Below, one piece after another: positions 4,692 through 10,908 of a DNA stretch of 64,000 nucleotides (its first letter is position 1; the number at the start of each line of letters is the position of its first letter). This DNA comes from Gimesia sp. (GTDB lineage Bacteria; Planctomycetota; Planctomycetia; Planctomycetales; Planctomycetaceae): NCBI GenBank assembly GCA_002706765.1, contig PAJV01000024.1:221562-285561 (forward strand), given 5' to 3'. Made by a program: the position numbers and the translations under genes. The notes under the pieces are model-generated. The model ran no database searches and had not been told where the DNA came from. It saw nothing but the letters and a program-made list of their open reading frames with translations.

Positions 4692-6038
4692 ATGAATACT
4701 TTACAGAACCCTCGAAGCAAGTCCGACACCAGACGGGTACTGATCATCGGCGGTGGTTTCGCCGGATTGAATGCGGCACTGGAACTGGGGGGAGTAGCCG
4801 GAGTGGAAGTCACCCTGGTGGATCGCCATAACTATCACCTGTTTCAACCGCTGCTCTATCAGGTGGCGATGGCCGGGCTCAGCCCCGCAGATATTGCCAC
4901 CCCCATTCGCAGCTTGCTTTCCGCTTATCGCAATACCAGTGTTTTACTGGGGGAAGCGGAGTCGATCGATCTTCCCGGACAAAAAGTCAAATTCGATTTC
5001 GGCGAACTGGAGTTCGACTACCTGGTACTGGCCTGTGGTGCGACACACAGCTATTTCGGTCATAATGAGTGGGAAAAATATGCTCCCGGCCTGAAGACAA
5101 TCTCACAGGCAACAGAAATCCGAAAACGGGTCCTGTCTGCCTTCGAGCATGCGGAACGCGTAACCGATCAGGATGAGCAAAAGAAGTATCTGACTTACGT
5201 GATCGTGGGGGGAGGCCCTACCGGGGTGGAACTGGCAGGTGCCATCGGGGAGATGAGCCGCTTTACGCTCTCACGGGATTTTCGACGAATCAATCCCAGT
5301 CATACCCGCGTCATTTTAGTGGAAGCAGGCCCCAGAATCTTGCCCATGTTTTCCGAGCAGCAGTCAAACCGGGCGGCCCGTGATCTGGAGAAGCTGGGAG
5401 TTCAGATCTGGACCTCATCTGTGGTAACGAATATCAATGCCGAGGGAGTGGAACTAGGGGATGAGCGAATCCGGGCTGCCACGGTGTTGTGGGCGGCAGG
5501 AGTTGAGGCTTCCGAACTCGGACAGGCAGGAGGCATGCACGTCGATAATCGTGGCCGGGTGCTTGTCGAACCGGATTTGAGCCTGGAAGGACATCCGAAT
5601 GTATTTGTGGCCGGCGACCAGGCCAGTTATACCCATCAGACAGGCAGCCCACTGCCGGGAACTGCTCCCGTTGCCTTGCAGCAGGGGCGATTCATCGGGA
5701 AAACGATTCGCAATGAAGTCAAAGGCAAGCCGCGCAGCAAGTTCCATTTCCGGGACAAAGGTCAGATGGCTACCATTGGACGCAGTCGCGCCATTGTCGA
5801 AATGGGGCGGTTCAAGCTGGCTGGTTTTTTTGCCTGGGTCGTCTGGCTGGTCGTGCACGTGTTTTATCTCACCGGCTTTAAAAACCGGGTACTGGTGGTG
5901 ATGCAGTGGGCCTGGTCCTATCTCAGTTTCAGGCGGGGCGCCCGATTGATTGTTGACCGGGGCTGGGTTCCTGCTGATGAACAGGATTCGGCAACAGAAA
6001 CCGAAGAAGAGGAAGTTCCTGTACCTTCAGAGCATTAA
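4692..6038 (+). CDS. ndh: Type II NADH dehydrogenase (NDH-2)
   Basis: 448-residue FAD-dependent pyridine nucleotide-disulfide oxidoreductase of the NDH-2 type, which passes electrons from NADH to quinone without pumping protons. The FAD Rossmann motif GGGFAGLNAA lies near residue 20 and the NAD-binding GGGPTGVELAGAIGE near 175; a conserved VFVAGDQA near 305 contacts FAD. The QPLLYQVAMAGLSP segment after the first motif is typical of NDH-2. A hydrophobic C-terminal segment (about 375-410) fits membrane attachment, and the end is Glu-rich. In this window it would feed the menaquinone pool made by the mqn genes. It is transcribed alone and converges on the metal transporter operon. Confidence 0.9.
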   Translation: MNTLQNPRSKSDTRRVLIIGGGFAGLNAALELGGVAGVEVTLVDRHNYHLFQPLLYQVAMAGLSPADIATPIRSLLSAYRNTSVLLGEAESIDLPGQKVKFDFGELEFDYLVLACGATHSYFGHNEWEKYAPGLKTISQATEIRKRVLSAFEHAERVTDQDEQKKYLTYVIVGGGPTGVELAGAIGEMSRFTLSRDFRRINPSHTRVILVEAGPRILPMFSEQQSNRAARDLEKLGVQIWTSSVVTNINAEGVELGDERIRAATVLWAAGVEASELGQAGGMHVDNRGRVLVEPDLSLEGHPNVFVAGDQASYTHQTGSPLPGTAPVALQQGRFIGKTIRNEVKGKPRSKFHFRDKGQMATIGRSRAIVEMGRFKLAGFFAWVVWLVVHVFYLTGFKNRVLVVMQWAWSYLSFRRGARLIVDRGWVPADEQDSATETEEEEVPVPSEH

Positions 6039-6096
6039 TGAATACAGGCTTCCGGGCCTGGAATGTCTGACGCTGGGGGGGGAAGCCGGATCTTCC

Positions 6097-7437
6097 TCAG
6101 TTGGTGAGTTCTTCGGGAGGAATAGGACTGCCGTGGGGATCCTGGTCCGTCTCGTTCGTATCCTCATTCAACTTTTCACGTAACTGGCGATCGGTAAAGT
6201 GTTCCAGTCGTTCGGCCTGTCTGTGAATGGTTTCTGTCGACATGCCCGCGTGTTCGACCAGGTAGTGTTCCCAGAGACGATGTGAACGAACCAGTTGACG
6301 TTCCCGATCACGGCCCGCTTCAGTCAATTCAAATTGACCATCTGATCCAGCAATCTGGTTCTGGTGTGTCAGGTAATAGAGTGTGAGACGGGTGGGCCAG
6401 GCGCGGGAGAATAGAATCTCGCGCAAATAGCCGGCATCCGGTTTAAGGTCCGGGTCACGTTCTTCAATACGATACATGAGCGCGATGATGTCTTCTGCCA
6501 GTATTTTCCAGGCCAGGAACTGCCTTCGAACAAAAATGACCAGAATTCCATGCCGAGGGCCGGACAGGGCAGCCAGAACAAACAGCAGACCCGCGGCGAC
6601 GGCCATCATCCCGGCGGTAGAAGTACTGCCATAACCGAACCAGTGTGGAACGGTTATGGCGCTGATGTGTCCCGTGATGGCAGCGATGACAGCCAGTATC
6701 ACACTGATAACAATCATGCGTCCCAGGCGATCGGTAAGCATGTAGGCGGCAGCGGGGGGAACCACAAACATTGCCACAACGAGAATATTGCCCACTGTTT
6801 CAAAACTGGCGACGGCCGTGATCGCGACCAGTGTCATGAGCGTGTAATGGATCAGTGTGGCGTTAAATCCCGTGGTCGTTGCGAGAGCCGGGTCGAATGA
6901 ACTGAGTTTGAGTTCCTTGAAAAAGCAAATCACAAACAACAGGTTGATTAACAGAACAATCGAGAGCACGGCGACAACCCGGGGGATTTCCCAGCCGGCA
7001 ATCAGAACCGTATCGAGGGGAGTCAGTTCAATTGCACCGTAGAGTACGCAGCCCGGATCCAGGTCAACATGGTCCGCAGCCTGCACAATCATGACCAGAC
7101 CCAGCGCAAACAGTGATGTGAAAACCACTCCCATGGCAGCGCCTTCGTCCACTTTTCCGAAGCTGCGAATCCACTCTGTGAACAGGGCTGTTAAAATTCC
7201 CGCGATGACCGCACCGACAAACATGGGCAGACTGCTGCGGCTGTCACTGATGAAAAACGCGGCAGCAAGACCGGGCAGGATGGCGTGCGTAATCGCATCA
7301 CCCAGCATACTCATTTTTCTCAAGACCAGAAAATTTCCCAGCAGGGCTGTTGCGACAGAACAGAGAATTCCCGCGACAATGATCCAGCCATCCAGATACC
7401 AGTTCCACTGGCTCAATGCTTCTCGAATGACATTCAT
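6097..7437 (-). CDS. Metal ABC permease 2 fused to MntR/DtxR-like domain
   Basis: 446 residues. The first ~285 form an ABC-3 family permease (MntB/ZnuB type) with about eight membrane segments and the conserved MLGDAITHAILPG near the N-terminus. The C-terminal ~130 residues are soluble and resemble an iron/manganese-dependent repressor: a degenerate winged helix (AEDIIALMY onward, ending ELTEAGRDRE) then a dimerisation helix with HRLWE and ERLEH. H386, E409, E412 and H413 line up with MntR metal ligands H77, E99, E102 and H103, and the ED before IIALMY matches MntR E7-D8. It overlaps the upstream permease by 4 bases (ATGA), so the two are translationally coupled. The layout resembles chlamydial YtgC-YtgR. 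Confidence 0.88.
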   Translation of the reverse strand: MNVIREALSQWNWYLDGWIIVAGILCSVATALLGNFLVLRKMSMLGDAITHAILPGLAAAFFISDSRSSLPMFVGAVIAGILTALFTEWIRSFGKVDEGAAMGVVFTSLFALGLVMIVQAADHVDLDPGCVLYGAIELTPLDTVLIAGWEIPRVVAVLSIVLLINLLFVICFFKELKLSSFDPALATTTGFNATLIHYTLMTLVAITAVASFETVGNILVVAMFVVPPAAAYMLTDRLGRMIVISVILAVIAAITGHISAITVPHWFGYGSTSTAGMMAVAAGLLFVLAALSGPRHGILVIFVRRQFLAWKILAEDIIALMYRIEERDPDLKPDAGYLREILFSRAWPTRLTLYYLTHQNQIAGSDGQFELTEAGRDRERQLVRSHRLWEHYLVEHAGMSTETIHRQAERLEHFTDRQLREKLNEDTNETDQDPHGSPIPPEELTN

Positions 7438-8930
7438 GAACCAGGCCTCCCGGATTGAGAGACCGATGAATCCGTGTTTCCCGGATCGATCTCCAGCGTG
7501 TGAGGGCTGGCTAAAATATCGGAGGACGCCTGTTGAATCAGTAACGCTTCCAGCTCAGCAATGACTTCCGGTTCCAGGACATGTTCGATGGCATCGGCGT
7601 CCCGATCGACCTTACTCGACGCCACGTCGGCATAGGTGATGAGGTACAGTTCCCAGAGTCGATGCTCGTGAACGACCCGTGCGGCTTCGGTCAGACCCAG
7701 GGGTGTCAATCGTATCTGATCACCGGAAACGGTCTCAATTAAGTCATTCTGTTCGGCACGCCGGATGATTTTGTGGAGTGCTGTTGGCGACCAGCTGCGC
7801 ATCTGGTAGAGGGCAGTGACGGGCACCGGTTTGATCTGTTTTTCTGCCAGCATGCGATGCGCTTCCAAGTATTCATAGATGCTGCGCAACAGGTGTTGTC
7901 GATTGACTTTAGTATTCAGTTGATAGCGTCTGACTTTGCGGATCAGAATGCCCCGGGGAATTCCAAAAACCATGCTGACCAGAAACATGCTGGTTGCCAC
8001 CAGTACAATCATCGCACCGGAAGGCAGGTTGGGGAAAATCGCGCTCATGGCAGAGCCTATCATTCCACTGAGCGCTCCGAGGACTGTAGCGACGAGCGAG
8101 AGGTAAAAGATCTTTTCTGTCCAGAAGCGGGCTGCCGCGGGGGGAATCACCAGGAGTGAAATCATCAGAATCAGACCAACCGCCTGGAGACCAATGATCG
8201 TCACTACCACAACCAGTCCCATCAGAATCATATCGAGAAAGACAACGGGGAAGCCCCGTGAGTGCGCAAAGCCTTCGTCAAAACAGAGTAGTGTGAGTTC
8301 CTTATACAGGAAGATAGAGATCAGCATACAGGTCAGACCCGCGCTGCCAATCAGCCAGGCATCGCTGGCGACCATTGATGCGGTCTTACCGTAAATAAAA
8401 GATTCGAGTCCGGCTGCGTGACCCGTCTGCATCTGCTGGACAATTCCCAGTAATGCGACTCCCGCTCCAAAAAAAACACTGAGCACAATTCCCAGGGCGG
8501 CGTCTTCTTTTAAACGGGTTAAATTACGAATCAGCAGAATGGATGCGATCCCCAGCAATCCGCTGATGGCAGCTCCCGACAGCAGCACAGGCAGGGTTTT
8601 GCCATTCATGCCCAGTGATGTCGCGAGAATAAAAGCCAGTGCTATGCCGGGCAGGGTGGCATGGCTTAAAGCGTCCCCCATCAGGGCTCGTTTTCTCAGC
8701 AGGGCAAAACTGCCGATCATGCCGGCGGACATGCCCAGTAATGTCGTGCCCAGAATGACGATGCGCGTGTTATAGTCCTCTAAAAAGAAAACCCGTCTCC
8801 AGTCTTTCCATTCAGGAAGGGAAATGCTGCGGTCTGTAATGGATTCCTGGGAAATAGAGGGCTCGGCTGCGAGCAGCGCAGGCGCAGGACAGAGACTCAG
8901 CAGCAGAACTATCATGGCAAACAGTCTCAT
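7434..8930 (-). CDS. Metal ABC permease 1 fused to MntR/DtxR-like domain
   Basis: 498 residues. A cleavable-looking signal (MRLFAMIVLLLSLCPAPALLA) and a short periplasmic stretch precede an ABC-3 permease with the conserved MGDALSHATLPGIALAF. From about residue 340 a soluble DtxR/MntR-like module follows: winged helix (SIYEYLE, then VTALYQMRSWSPTALHKIIRR as helix-turn-helix) and a dimerisation domain (HRLWELYL, AIEHVL). H423, D446, E449 and H450 match MntR H77, E99, E102 and H103, but the N-terminal D8 and E11 equivalents appear to be His and Arg. Its start overlaps the ATPase stop by 4 bases. Of the two fusions this one keeps the better helix-turn-helix and is the more plausible DNA binder. 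Confidence 0.88.
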   Translation of the reverse strand: MRLFAMIVLLLSLCPAPALLAAEPSISQESITDRSISLPEWKDWRRVFFLEDYNTRIVILGTTLLGMSAGMIGSFALLRKRALMGDALSHATLPGIALAFILATSLGMNGKTLPVLLSGAAISGLLGIASILLIRNLTRLKEDAALGIVLSVFFGAGVALLGIVQQMQTGHAAGLESFIYGKTASMVASDAWLIGSAGLTCMLISIFLYKELTLLCFDEGFAHSRGFPVVFLDMILMGLVVVVTIIGLQAVGLILMISLLVIPPAAARFWTEKIFYLSLVATVLGALSGMIGSAMSAIFPNLPSGAMIVLVATSMFLVSMVFGIPRGILIRKVRRYQLNTKVNRQHLLRSIYEYLEAHRMLAEKQIKPVPVTALYQMRSWSPTALHKIIRRAEQNDLIETVSGDQIRLTPLGLTEAARVVHEHRLWELYLITYADVASSKVDRDADAIEHVLEPEVIAELEALLIQQASSDILASPHTLEIDPGNTDSSVSQSGRPGS

Positions 8931-9742
8931 AAAGACTGCTCCCGGCGACGCATGGTCTCGGTTGCTTCTTCCAGCAGAGTCAGTCTGCCGCCATAGGTTT
9001 TCTGCAGATTTTCAGGCGTGAAAACATCTGCGGTCAAACCATGATCGATCACCCGCATATTCAGCAGGATGACATAGTCAAAATATTCCGGTACGGTCTG
9101 GAGGTCATGATGGATCACCAGCGCCGTTTTACCGGACTCTTTCATTTCCTGCAGGATCTGGACGATTGCTTTTTCTGTAGCGGCATCCACGGCTGCGAAG
9201 GGTTCATCCATCAGGTATAAATCAGCATTCTGCACCAGGGCGCGGGCCAGGAAGGTCCGCTGTTGCTGTCCCCCTGAGAGCTGGCTGATCTGGCGGCGGG
9301 CATAGTCGGCGATTCCCACACGCTCCAGTGCTTCCATGGCACGAACTTTATGTTTTTTGCGAACAGGCAGACACCAGCCAATTTCTTTATAGAGTCCCAT
9401 TGTCACCACATCCAGGGCGTCCACGGGAAAATCCCAGTCGACACTTTCCCGCTGGGGAACGTAACCCACACGGTGTCGATTTTTCTGATACGACTTGCCA
9501 AAGATCTGAACCCGTCCGGATGCTTTCGGTATCAGATCCATGACGGCTTTCAGCAGTGTGCTTTTCCCTGCGCCATTGGGGCCAATGATCCCAATCAGCT
9601 TACCCGGCGGGATATCAAAGCTGACGTCCCAGATCACAGGCTTGCGATGATATGCCACTGTCAGATCATAGACCGAGAGGGGGATCGCAGCGTTTGAAGT
9701 ATCGTTTTGCCGGTCGGGGGAAACACTGTTGCTGGTATTCAT
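8927..9742 (-). CDS. Metal ABC transporter ATP-binding protein
   Basis: 271-residue ATPase of the Mn/Zn/Fe importer family (MntA/ZnuC/YtgB type). Walker A is GPNGAGKST, the ABC signature is LSGGQQQR, and Walker B reads LYLMDEPFAAVD. The RVGYVPQRESVDWDFPV stretch is typical of manganese/zinc importer ATPases. It is the second gene of the operon: 77 bases after the binding lipoprotein and 4 bases overlapping the first permease. It energises import of the metal delivered by the lipoprotein. The ATG at 9742 lies outside the nucleotide-binding core, consistent with a complete protein. Confidence 0.93.
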   Translation of the reverse strand: MNTSNSVSPDRQNDTSNAAIPLSVYDLTVAYHRKPVIWDVSFDIPPGKLIGIIGPNGAGKSTLLKAVMDLIPKASGRVQIFGKSYQKNRHRVGYVPQRESVDWDFPVDALDVVTMGLYKEIGWCLPVRKKHKVRAMEALERVGIADYARRQISQLSGGQQQRTFLARALVQNADLYLMDEPFAAVDAATEKAIVQILQEMKESGKTALVIHHDLQTVPEYFDYVILLNMRVIDHGLTADVFTPENLQKTYGGRLTLLEEATETMRRREQSL

Positions 9743-9819
9743 AAGATCGAAACGATTTCATTGAATGTATGCTGGATATAAGAGTCAGATAAATACGGTC
9801 AGGATGTGAGGGGGTTGAG

Positions 9820-10812
9820 TCACGGGGTGAGTTTGCCCTGCATTCCTTTTTCAGGGGCGGTGCCGCCGAGCGCTCTGGCAACGATCGTGAAATTATGATC
9901 CAGCATGCCCATGTAACTCCCTTCGTAGCTGCCTGCTTCTCCCATGGCATCAGAGAACAATTCGCCGCCAATAATAATCTCATGACCTTGCGCTTTCGCA
10001 CCATCGATCAACGCTGTGATATTCTTTTTAGAGACACTGCTTTCCACAAAGACAGCTTTGACATCTTTCGCGACCAGTAAATCAACCAGTTCGTTGATCC
10101 GTTTCAGACCGGCTTCTGATTCTGTAGAAATCCCCTGAACTCCCAGCACTTCCAGTCCATAAGCCCGGCCAAAATAATTGAAGGCATCATGCGAGGTGAT
10201 TAAAATTCGACTGTTCTGCGGTATGGACTGAATCACTTTCAATCCATACTCATGCAGCGTATTGAGTTGCTGTTTGTAGTCGTCAGCATTCTTCTGATAG
10301 TCAGCGGCGTGCCTGGGGTCATACCGGCTCAAAGCGTCTTTCACCGCATCAACACAGAGTGACCAGGTGGCGACATCCATCCAGACGTGGGGGTCGTAAT
10401 GACCGTTGAAATCGTCCGGTTCCAGTAAGGTTTTCTGGTCGATCAACTCCGTGACTGCAAAGACAGGTTTGTTGCGAGCGACCTTGATCAGGGTGTCCGC
10501 CATTTTTCCTTCCAGCATCAGTCCAGAATAAAAGACCATGTCGGAATTCATGATTGTCTGCACATCATCACGGCTGGCTTTATGCATGTGGGGGTCGACC
10601 CCCGAACCCATAATTTGTGTGACGGCCACATATTCTCGTCCTACATTTTTCACCAGATCTGCGACCATCCCCACGGTTGCGGCTACCGGAATCGGATATT
10701 TTAACTGCTTGTCTGACTGCTGATCAGAGGATTCTTCAGGAACCGAATCCTGCCTGGACTGGCAGCCTGCCAGTATGCCTAACATCAGGCTGAATGCGAG
10801 AAGCTTTCGCAT
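9820..10812 (-). CDS. Metal-binding lipoprotein of ABC importer (cluster 9)
   Basis: 330-residue substrate-binding protein. The signal ends in a lipobox (LGILAGC), so it is tethered to a membrane by lipidated Cys17. Candidate metal ligands are His in DPHMHKASRDD, His in YDPHVWMD, Glu in VFVESSVS and Asp in GGELFSDAMG. This His2-Glu-Asp set is that of Mn/Fe-type PsaA/MntC proteins, and the long His-rich loop of zinc-specific ZnuA is absent. Substrate as Mn or Fe is therefore inference. The ribosome site AGGAG lies 9 bases before the ATG. It is the first gene of the operon, directly behind the palindromic operator. Confidence 0.92.
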   Translation of the reverse strand: MRKLLAFSLMLGILAGCQSRQDSVPEESSDQQSDKQLKYPIPVAATVGMVADLVKNVGREYVAVTQIMGSGVDPHMHKASRDDVQTIMNSDMVFYSGLMLEGKMADTLIKVARNKPVFAVTELIDQKTLLEPDDFNGHYDPHVWMDVATWSLCVDAVKDALSRYDPRHAADYQKNADDYKQQLNTLHEYGLKVIQSIPQNSRILITSHDAFNYFGRAYGLEVLGVQGISTESEAGLKRINELVDLLVAKDVKAVFVESSVSKKNITALIDGAKAQGHEIIIGGELFSDAMGEAGSYEGSYMGMLDHNFTIVARALGGTAPEKGMQGKLTP

Positions 10813-10852
10813 TGATGATCTCCTGGTAGAGAATGTGTGTACAATGAATGTT

Positions 10853-10874
10853 AAATGTAGCCTAGGCTACATTT
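10853..10874. promoter_or_regulatory. Perfect 22-bp palindrome, candidate metal-repressor operator
   Basis: The 22 bases form a perfect inverted repeat with half-site AAATGTAGCCT and no spacer. The centre TAGCCTAGGCTA resembles the TAGSCTA core of DtxR-type boxes. It begins 6 bases downstream of the predicted -10 hexamer of the importer operon, so a bound dimer would cover the transcription start. It is 41 bases before the lipoprotein ATG. Confidence 0.75.
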
Positions 10875-10880
10875 GGTTTT

Positions 10881-10908
10881 ATTTTAGCAGAGTCCATGAT
10901 GGTGTCAA
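10881..10908 (-). promoter_or_regulatory. Strong sigma70 promoter of the metal importer operon
   Basis: On the minus strand a perfect TTGACA (10908-10903) is followed after 16 bases by TAAAAT (10886-10881, five of six matches). The start would fall in or beside the adjacent palindrome, a classical repression geometry. The promoter lies between the upstream hydrolase gene and the lipoprotein gene, so the importer is an independent transcription unit. Confidence 0.7.

Follow-up and report, generated by a model that had tools for sequence, protein, structure and literature searches.

A DtxR-Family Metal-Binding Domain Fused to Both Permeases of a Planctomycete ABC Importer as a Candidate Sensor of the Imported Metal

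Introduction

The window analyzed here is a stretch of 64,000 nucleotides from Gimesia sp. (contig PAJV01000024.1). On its minus strand it carries a four-gene operon for an ATP-binding cassette (ABC) importer, in which each of the two permeases, termed P1 and P2, ends in a domain of the DtxR/MntR family of metal-dependent repressors. The question raised by this locus is what a repressor domain does on a transporter. YtgC carries such a fusion in Chlamydia; there, the domain is set free and binds DNA in the presence of iron, or of zinc in another study (passages of PMC5599777). An earlier reading of the window, made from its letters only and referred to below as the sequence-only reading, proposed a doubled system of this type, in which the transporter senses its own cargo, possibly through a P1/P2 heterodimer, and regulates its own gene. 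The doubled fusion is confirmed by the analysis, since two permeases bearing PF02742 were found. The regulation of its own gene is not supported, because the DNA-reading segments drift while the operator is fixed, and because this operator resembles the mntH site of Escherichia coli and co-occurs with a separate MntR. The data suggest that the pump senses the imported metal and may throttle itself rather than its own gene.

Results

Operon Structure and Identity of the Importer

The operon consists of the following genes (E-values in brackets).

9820..10812, minus strand: substrate-binding lipoprotein (SBP) of the ZnuA/PsaA family (PF01297, 1.2e-73)
8927..9742, minus strand: ATPase subunit (PF00005, ABC_tran, 6.6e-32)
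7434..8930, minus strand: P2, ABC-3 permease with a DtxR-family metal-binding domain, 498 amino acids (PF00950, 7.7e-58; PF02742, 3.9e-12)
6097..7437, minus strand: P1, ABC-3 permease with a DtxR-family metal-binding domain, 446 amino acids (PF00950, 1.8e-44; PF02742, 5.6e-20)

The genes are arranged in the order SBP, ATPase, P2, P1, the last three overlapping by 4 bases each, and the Pfam matches agree with the tightly overlapping lipoprotein, ATPase and two ABC-3 permeases described by the sequence-only reading. The metal-repressor domain that it placed on both permeases was recovered as well; the ABC-3 and Fe_dep_repr_C matches of P1 and P2 all exceed the Pfam cut-offs.

The operon has the gene set of a manganese/iron ABC importer of the ABC-3/ZnuA type, namely an SBP, an ATPase and ABC-3 permeases. 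Clues to the metal are an MntR-type box in front of the operon and several matches to manganese families, but zinc (AztC) matches were found too. The best NCBIfam matches of the SBP are AztC, EfaA, and MntC, and the top match of the ATPase is the manganese family MntA (6e-63), all of them lying below the NCBIfam cut-offs. P1 matches 7kyo (1e-28) and P2 matches 7kyp (5e-30), which are manganese importer permeases. With 282 and 290 residues, these chains are too short for a DtxR-family domain as carried by the Gimesia permeases. The N-terminus of P2 (window 8850-8930) starts with a stretch resembling a signal peptide, followed by about 30 soluble residues ahead of the first ABC-3 helix.

Metal-Binding Domains and Their Ligands

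In both permeases, the metal-binding domain was located at the C-terminus.

7497..7712, minus strand: metal-binding/dimerization domain of P2 (PF02742), residues 407-478, with H423, E427, D442, D446, E449, and H450
6118..6330, minus strand: metal-binding/dimerization domain of P1 (PF02742), residues 370-440, with H386, E390, H405, E409, E412, and H413, followed by DPHG-x2-IP

The domain region joins the permease after the last hydrophobic segment and a short run of residues with positive charge (RRQFLAWK in P1, RKVRRYQLN in P2), the topology being a crude one derived from hydropathy only. Both domains are of the DtxR/MntR type, with the ligands of this family in place. The ligands named by the sequence-only reading are well conserved. 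In P1, H386, W389, E390, E412, and H413 are invariant in the 80 aligned rows, H405 is found in 79 of them, and position 409 holds glutamate in 49 rows and aspartate in 10 more. In the 77 rows of P2, conservation is slightly lower (H423 in 72, E427 in 72, D442 in 64, E449 in 72, H450 in 73), and position 446 is occupied by aspartate in 60 rows and by glutamate in 14 more.

Furthermore, two candidate ligands which were absent from the sequence-only reading lie on helix 1 of the segment preceding the metal domain, namely D316 in P1 (67/80) and H346 in P2 (46/77). We take them to occupy the positions of M10 in DtxR and D8 in MntR, as placed by eye on the alignments. Helix 1 is better conserved (0.41 in P1, 0.35 in P2) than the remaining winged helix-turn-helix (wHTH), for which the values are 0.17 and 0.23.

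The DNA-Reading Segment Is Degenerate

The segment between permease and metal domain corresponds in position to the DNA-binding half of a DtxR-type repressor.

7713..7919, minus strand: degenerate winged-helix segment of P2, residues 338-406, with H346 on helix 1 (PF01325 in 0/14; phmmer alignment to DtxR 10-146; drift)
6334..6528, minus strand: degenerate winged-helix segment of P1, residues 304-368, with D316 on helix 1 (PF01325 in 0/14; drift)

Judged by its sequence, the DNA-binding half of both fused domains is degenerate. The DtxR DNA-binding model PF01325 matched none of 38 fused proteins (14 P1, 14 P2, and 10 more divergent ones) at E-values up to 10, a limit at which the HMMER filters still discard most matches above about 0.1. 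PF02742 was found in all 38, and 10 of 10 standalone regulators, serving as a positive control, matched both models. Standalone MntR (PRK11050) and DtxR/IdeR thus share the metal-binding/dimerization domain and its ligands with the fused proteins, but they retain PF01325 and a conserved recognition region, which the fused proteins do not.

Within the genus, the 35 residues preceding the metal domain have a mean identity of only 64% in P1 and 54% in P2, compared to 88 and 84% for the metal domains, which are nearly as conserved as the membrane parts (91% in both). The standalone controls of the same genus behave differently, with 96% for the DNA-reading segment vs. 81% for the metal domain in MntR and 93% vs. 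93% in DtxR. The same 11 genomes were used for all four proteins; larger, unequal sets, in which two loci were counted twice (L015 = L163, L016 = L164), gave similar identities. Beyond the genus, the identity of the fused segment falls to 17% (P1) and 23% (P2), whereas the metal domains keep 46 and 50%. The corresponding values for standalone regulators are 51% vs. 53% in MntR (17 sequences) and 43% vs. 54% in DtxR (19 sequences).

The segment of P2 can nevertheless be aligned by phmmer to DtxR 10-146 (E 6e-9), which argues for a decayed wHTH and not for an unrelated linker. The winged-helix features are thus less pronounced than the sequence-only reading had stated: they stand for P2 as a matter of homology, but neither of the two window proteins matches PF01325.

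A Conserved Operator and a Separate MntR

Upstream of the SBP gene, two candidate regulatory elements were predicted.

10853..10874, either strand: perfect 22-bp palindrome AAATGTAGCCTAGGCTACATTT, predicted as the probable box of a separate MntR (conservation, likeness to E. coli, co-occurrence with MntR)
10881..10908, minus strand: promoter-like hexamers TTGACA-16-TAAAAT (consensus match only)

The promoter-like pair (10908-10881) agrees with the consensus at 11 of 12 positions, 0.5 such sites being expected by shuffling. The palindrome, which the sequence-only reading had already located, sits just downstream of the hexamers at the would-be transcription start. In each genome of the genus (17/17), the pattern AATGTAGCCNNGGCTACATT occurs once without a mismatch, and its distance to the P2 domain is about 3.2-3.5 kb as in the window, so that the operator keeps all of its 18 fixed positions within the genus.

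The palindrome has the pattern of an E. coli-type MntR box (TAGC-N4-GCTA with flanking A and T), and the source genome encodes an MntR of this type (170 bits vs. an NCBIfam cut-off of 153). A like site, AAACATAGCCTTTGCTATGTTT, is located just before mntH in E. coli K-12, and TAGC-N4-GCTA sites lie before mntS and mntP. These E. coli sites are presumably MntR boxes, although the sequence record does not mark them as such. In passages of PMC4361602, MntR of E. coli is described as a repressor of mntH and mntS and is associated with the induction of mntP.

Across the 80 selected loci described below and the window, 70 of 81 loci had an SBP match and were counted. A genome was taken as MntR-positive from 143 bits upward, a line which was drawn after the scores had been seen, the next lower score being 122; at least 37 genomes were positive, 4 of 37 lying slightly below the curated 153. 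With MntR assigned among the matches listed, 18 of the 28 loci whose genomes encode an E. coli-type MntR had a TAGC-N4-GCTA site upstream of the SBP gene, compared to 3 of the 42 remaining loci (Fisher 4e-7). Beyond the genus, the counts are 9/19 with and 2/41 without MntR (Fisher 2e-4), and for double fusions only they are 18/25 and 2/25 (Fisher 6e-6). These p values serve as a rough orientation only, since related genomes are not independent and the Fisher test ignores shared ancestry. The final scan was anchored on the SBP domain because scans from open-frame starts had missed some loci. The scans differ in places; one site (L075) was present in the open-frame-anchored scan and is uncounted in the SBP-anchored one. 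Among the three site-bearing loci without MntR, one (G227) has an MntR fragment, an open frame of 56 amino acids, yet was counted as negative. In addition, a separate regulator gene lies within the stretch of 20 of the 50 double-fusion loci (13 MntR, 7 DtxR). A separate MntR is the probable ligand of the palindrome at 10853.

Occurrence of the Fusion in Planctomycetes

A search with six peptides yielded 13 related loci, found via P2 in Gimesia sp. and other planctomycetes. Both permeases are fused in all 13. As two of the six peptides lie inside the P2 domain, the search leaned to fused P2, and the P1 fusion gives the fairer count. The profile of the fused domains was then compared with 392 Planctomycetota genomes, and at least 191 of them matched, a figure to which standalone regulators also contribute. 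Among the best matches, 80 regions were picked, which come from 75 genomes. Two fused permeases are present in 50 of them, one fused and one unfused permease in 13, a single fused permease in view in 16, and none in 1. The double fusion proposed by the sequence-only reading was thereby found again in other planctomycetes, although 13/13 and 50/80 do not represent a prevalence, both sets having been selected by queries containing the fused domain. Ten of the 16 single permeases are P1-like and P2-like halves lying apart in five genomes (L051/L052, L060/L061, L063/L064, L065/L066, and L085/L086).

In one relative (L062:61-2643), P2, one metal domain and P1 form a single open frame of 861 amino acids, for which a lost stop codon in the draft genome is a possible explanation. 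Spread of the fusion by plasmids was considered and rejected: matches to P1 occur in 1275 of 72,556 plasmid records, but in no case do they span at least 80% of the protein.

Origin of the Fused Domain

A tree of 93 metal domains was built on 59 columns, with an unsettled bootstrap. One of its branches, with a support of 100/99, has all 55 fused rows on the same side. Of the 38 rows taken as standalone, two, both labeled DtxR, group with the fused ones on long branches, one being a true standalone regulator with PF01325 (L090) and the other L107. A tryptophan following HRL (HRLWE) marks the fused domains, as it is found in 155 of 157 fused rows vs. 2 of 38 others. Together, this suggests a single origin of the fused sensor.

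Locus L107 itself (5349-7019) contains a frame of 557 amino acids, situated beside a DtxR gene, in which a metal domain of the HRLWE type is combined with two FeoA matches; by Pfam, ABC-3 and PF01325 matches were not found in it.

Further Loci With MntR-Type Operators or Regulators

A second set of the operator found at the importer was observed in 8 of 8 genus loci examined (L135:5836-7320 in the window genome, contig C39, and L136-L142), each with two TGTAGC-N4-GCTACA copies 27-29 bp apart. Downstream of them lie a DUF1559 protein with a prepilin-type N-terminus and then a small lipoprotein-like gene, identified by Pfam at L135 and recognized by eye at the other seven loci. The two products may form a surface protein pair for metal starvation.

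Three genomes (G140:C52, G183:C36, and G323:C32) have two MntR matches per open frame of 309-345 amino acids, possibly single-chain MntR dimers. Finally, two near-identical contig ends of the window genome (C2:176-871 and C12:835-1530; L004 and L003) carry a DtxR-like gene with the altered metal motif QLEPSASD and a variant of the importer operator upstream, and on contig C21 a fragment of a similar gene lies beside frames which by eye resemble transposases.

Discussion

Comparison With Known Systems

The closest known system is YtgCR (CT069) of the chlamydial ytgABCD operon. It likewise combines a permease of the ABC-3 type with a DtxR-family domain at the C-terminus, is located in a metal-import operon and belongs to the Planctomycetes-Verrucomicrobia-Chlamydiae (PVC) bacteria. 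Its architecture, ABC-3 followed by PF02742, is found in 14 of 14 P1 and 14 of 14 P2 proteins. In contrast to YtgCR, both permeases are fused in Gimesia, their DNA heads are degenerate and MntR is encoded as a separate protein. An operator-recognizing DNA-binding domain was not found in the fused proteins by sequence, given the lack of PF01325 in the 38 proteins, the drift of the segment and an operator that tracks MntR. In titles and abstract starts of the open-licence PMC literature, searched for the fusion and for feedback on importers, a permease-DtxR fusion outside Chlamydia was not found.

A dimerizing, substrate-binding regulatory domain at the cytoplasmic C-terminus is the principle of MetNI and ModABC, according to passages of PMC10710835, where trans-inhibition is demonstrated. 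In Gimesia, ligands and domain are present, and binding as well as trans-inhibition would follow by analogy. The domains of MetNI and ModABC have other folds and are located on the ATPase, whereas those of Gimesia are derived from a transcription factor and are located on the two permeases. With the manganese importers PsaBC and MntBC, the ABC-3 permease family is held in common; these are described as homodimeric in the abstract of PMC11779740, whereas Gimesia uses two different permeases.

A Possible Sensor Brake on the Importer

What the sequences themselves show are the permease fusions, metal sites that are conserved, a DNA-reading region in decay, an operator that is conserved and a gene for a separate MntR. 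From these, we infer metal binding, heterodimerization, inhibition of transport and binding of MntR to the operator, as well as every further step beyond the conserved metal site on the permease. Each of the two permeases bears a metal-sensing and dimerization core of the DtxR family, attached to what would be its cytoplasmic C-terminal helix. Rising metal in the cytosol would be bound by the domains of P1 and P2, forming a heterodimer beneath the transporter. The binding would clamp helix 1, with the putative ligands D316 in P1 and H346 in P2, to the dimerized cores. As helix 1 closely follows the last membrane helix, clamping would hold the permease pair in a resting state, and import would halt by trans-inhibition. 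Transcription would be left to the separate MntR on the palindrome at 10853. For MntBC of Bacillus anthracis, passages of PMC8487065 describe a C-terminal helix modeled as a cytoplasmic extension, whose truncation abolished activity. The attachment site of the fused domains would correspond, by analogy, to this helix.

That the fused domains act as an allosteric metal sensor giving product feedback on the importer, with MntR controlling transcription, has in our estimation an even chance of being correct. The more specific proposal is held tentatively, at a little below even chances. According to it, Planctomycetes converted a metal-dependent repressor into an allosteric brake that acts on the two halves of an ABC importer, a permease-borne P1/P2 heterodimer sensor beside a transcriptional MntR. 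Among ABC importers of transition-metal cations, this would be the first to be inhibited directly by its product. The cargo sensing and the heterodimer of the sequence-only reading are plausible in view of the conserved ligands and the dimerization domain, with the restriction that 13 of 80 loci are one-sided.

Alternative Explanations

In autorepression of the YtgCR type, the operon would be repressed by the C-terminal domains, which would occupy the palindrome together with metal, either after cleavage or while still tethered. This was the starting hypothesis and was set back by the wHTH and operator analyses. The chlamydial precedent speaks for it, as YtgR freed from YtgC represses the ytg promoter (passages of PMC5599777 and PMC7755916), and so do the suitable position of the palindrome for repression of the operon, the wHTH homology still detectable in P2 and two genomes (G344, G357) with fused domains and no further PF02742 match among the matches listed. 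However, mean identity in the DNA-reading segments is only 54-64% in a genus in which all 18 operator positions are fixed. PF01325 is missing from the 38 fused proteins, and among double fusions the box follows the separate MntR (18/25 vs. 2/25). Furthermore, the domain is enclosed in a longer permease frame in one relative, and a free domain arising from an internal start was rejected, since Shine-Dalgarno-like starts were seen in 4 of 14 P1 and 2 of 14 P2 only, in differing places and without conservation. We regard autorepression as rather unlikely. Practically the same low probability, or marginally less, is assigned to a membrane-tethered partner of MntR or DtxR, in which the fused domains dimerize with the free regulator or sequester it according to metal flux. 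Transporters signal to regulators in other systems, the dimerization domain is conserved while the DNA head has decayed, and 20 of 50 double-fusion loci have a separate regulator gene. Against such a partnership, the fused metal domains lie on a branch of their own with a distinctive tryptophan, and no fixed partner is seen, since the neighboring regulators are of two kinds.

A metal buffer, chaperone or assembly domain, which would catch the metal at the cytoplasmic exit or merely pair the permeases and leave import unregulated, needs nothing beyond a conserved metal site and a dimerization surface. We consider it unlikely too, if somewhat less so than the two preceding explanations. Conservation of helix 1, the link between membrane helix and metal site, exceeds that of the remaining wHTH, and this fits coupling rather than storage. 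The loci with one fused permease indicate that the domain is not required for pairing. The decay of the wHTH would also be expected if the domains were functionless vestiges of an old permease-repressor fusion, but this is very improbable, because the metal domain approaches the membrane part in identity within the genus (0.88 vs. 0.91 in P1, 0.84 vs. 0.91 in P2) and because most ligands hardly vary among the loci examined.

Several observations weigh against the sensor brake with a transcriptional MntR. The helix-1 candidate of P2 varies, with H346 in 46 of 77 rows, asparagine in 14 and aspartate in 12. The pair of P1 and P2 domains is not universal, as is evident from the 13 of 80 loci with one fused and one unfused permease. 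Ten of the 28 loci with MntR have no TAGC-N4-GCTA site. In G344 and G357, the only PF02742 matches among those listed are the two fused domains, so that the operon would be controlled there by a regulator outside the DtxR family or by the fused domain itself; at the G344 locus, the TAGC-N4-GCTA site is present in an imperfect form. P2 keeps R378 (63/77) and W380 (59/77) near the start of the putative recognition helix, and with this residual similarity to a wHTH, P2 may bind DNA or protein. Finally, the chlamydial fusion is an established DNA-binding repressor (passages of PMC5599777 and PMC7755916).

Significance

The fused domain and the repressor of the operon appear to be different proteins in Gimesia, and thus two roles which are joined in chlamydial YtgCR would be separated here. 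The grafting of the sensing core of a repressor onto an importer would offer a solution to an issue argued in print, since the text concerned names regulators as complex enough to specify their metal. The question can be tested with one operon and point mutants. If the proposal is true, this planctomycete importer would carry its sensor on the permeases and not on the ATPases, and the import of a transition metal would be subject to inhibition by its own product.

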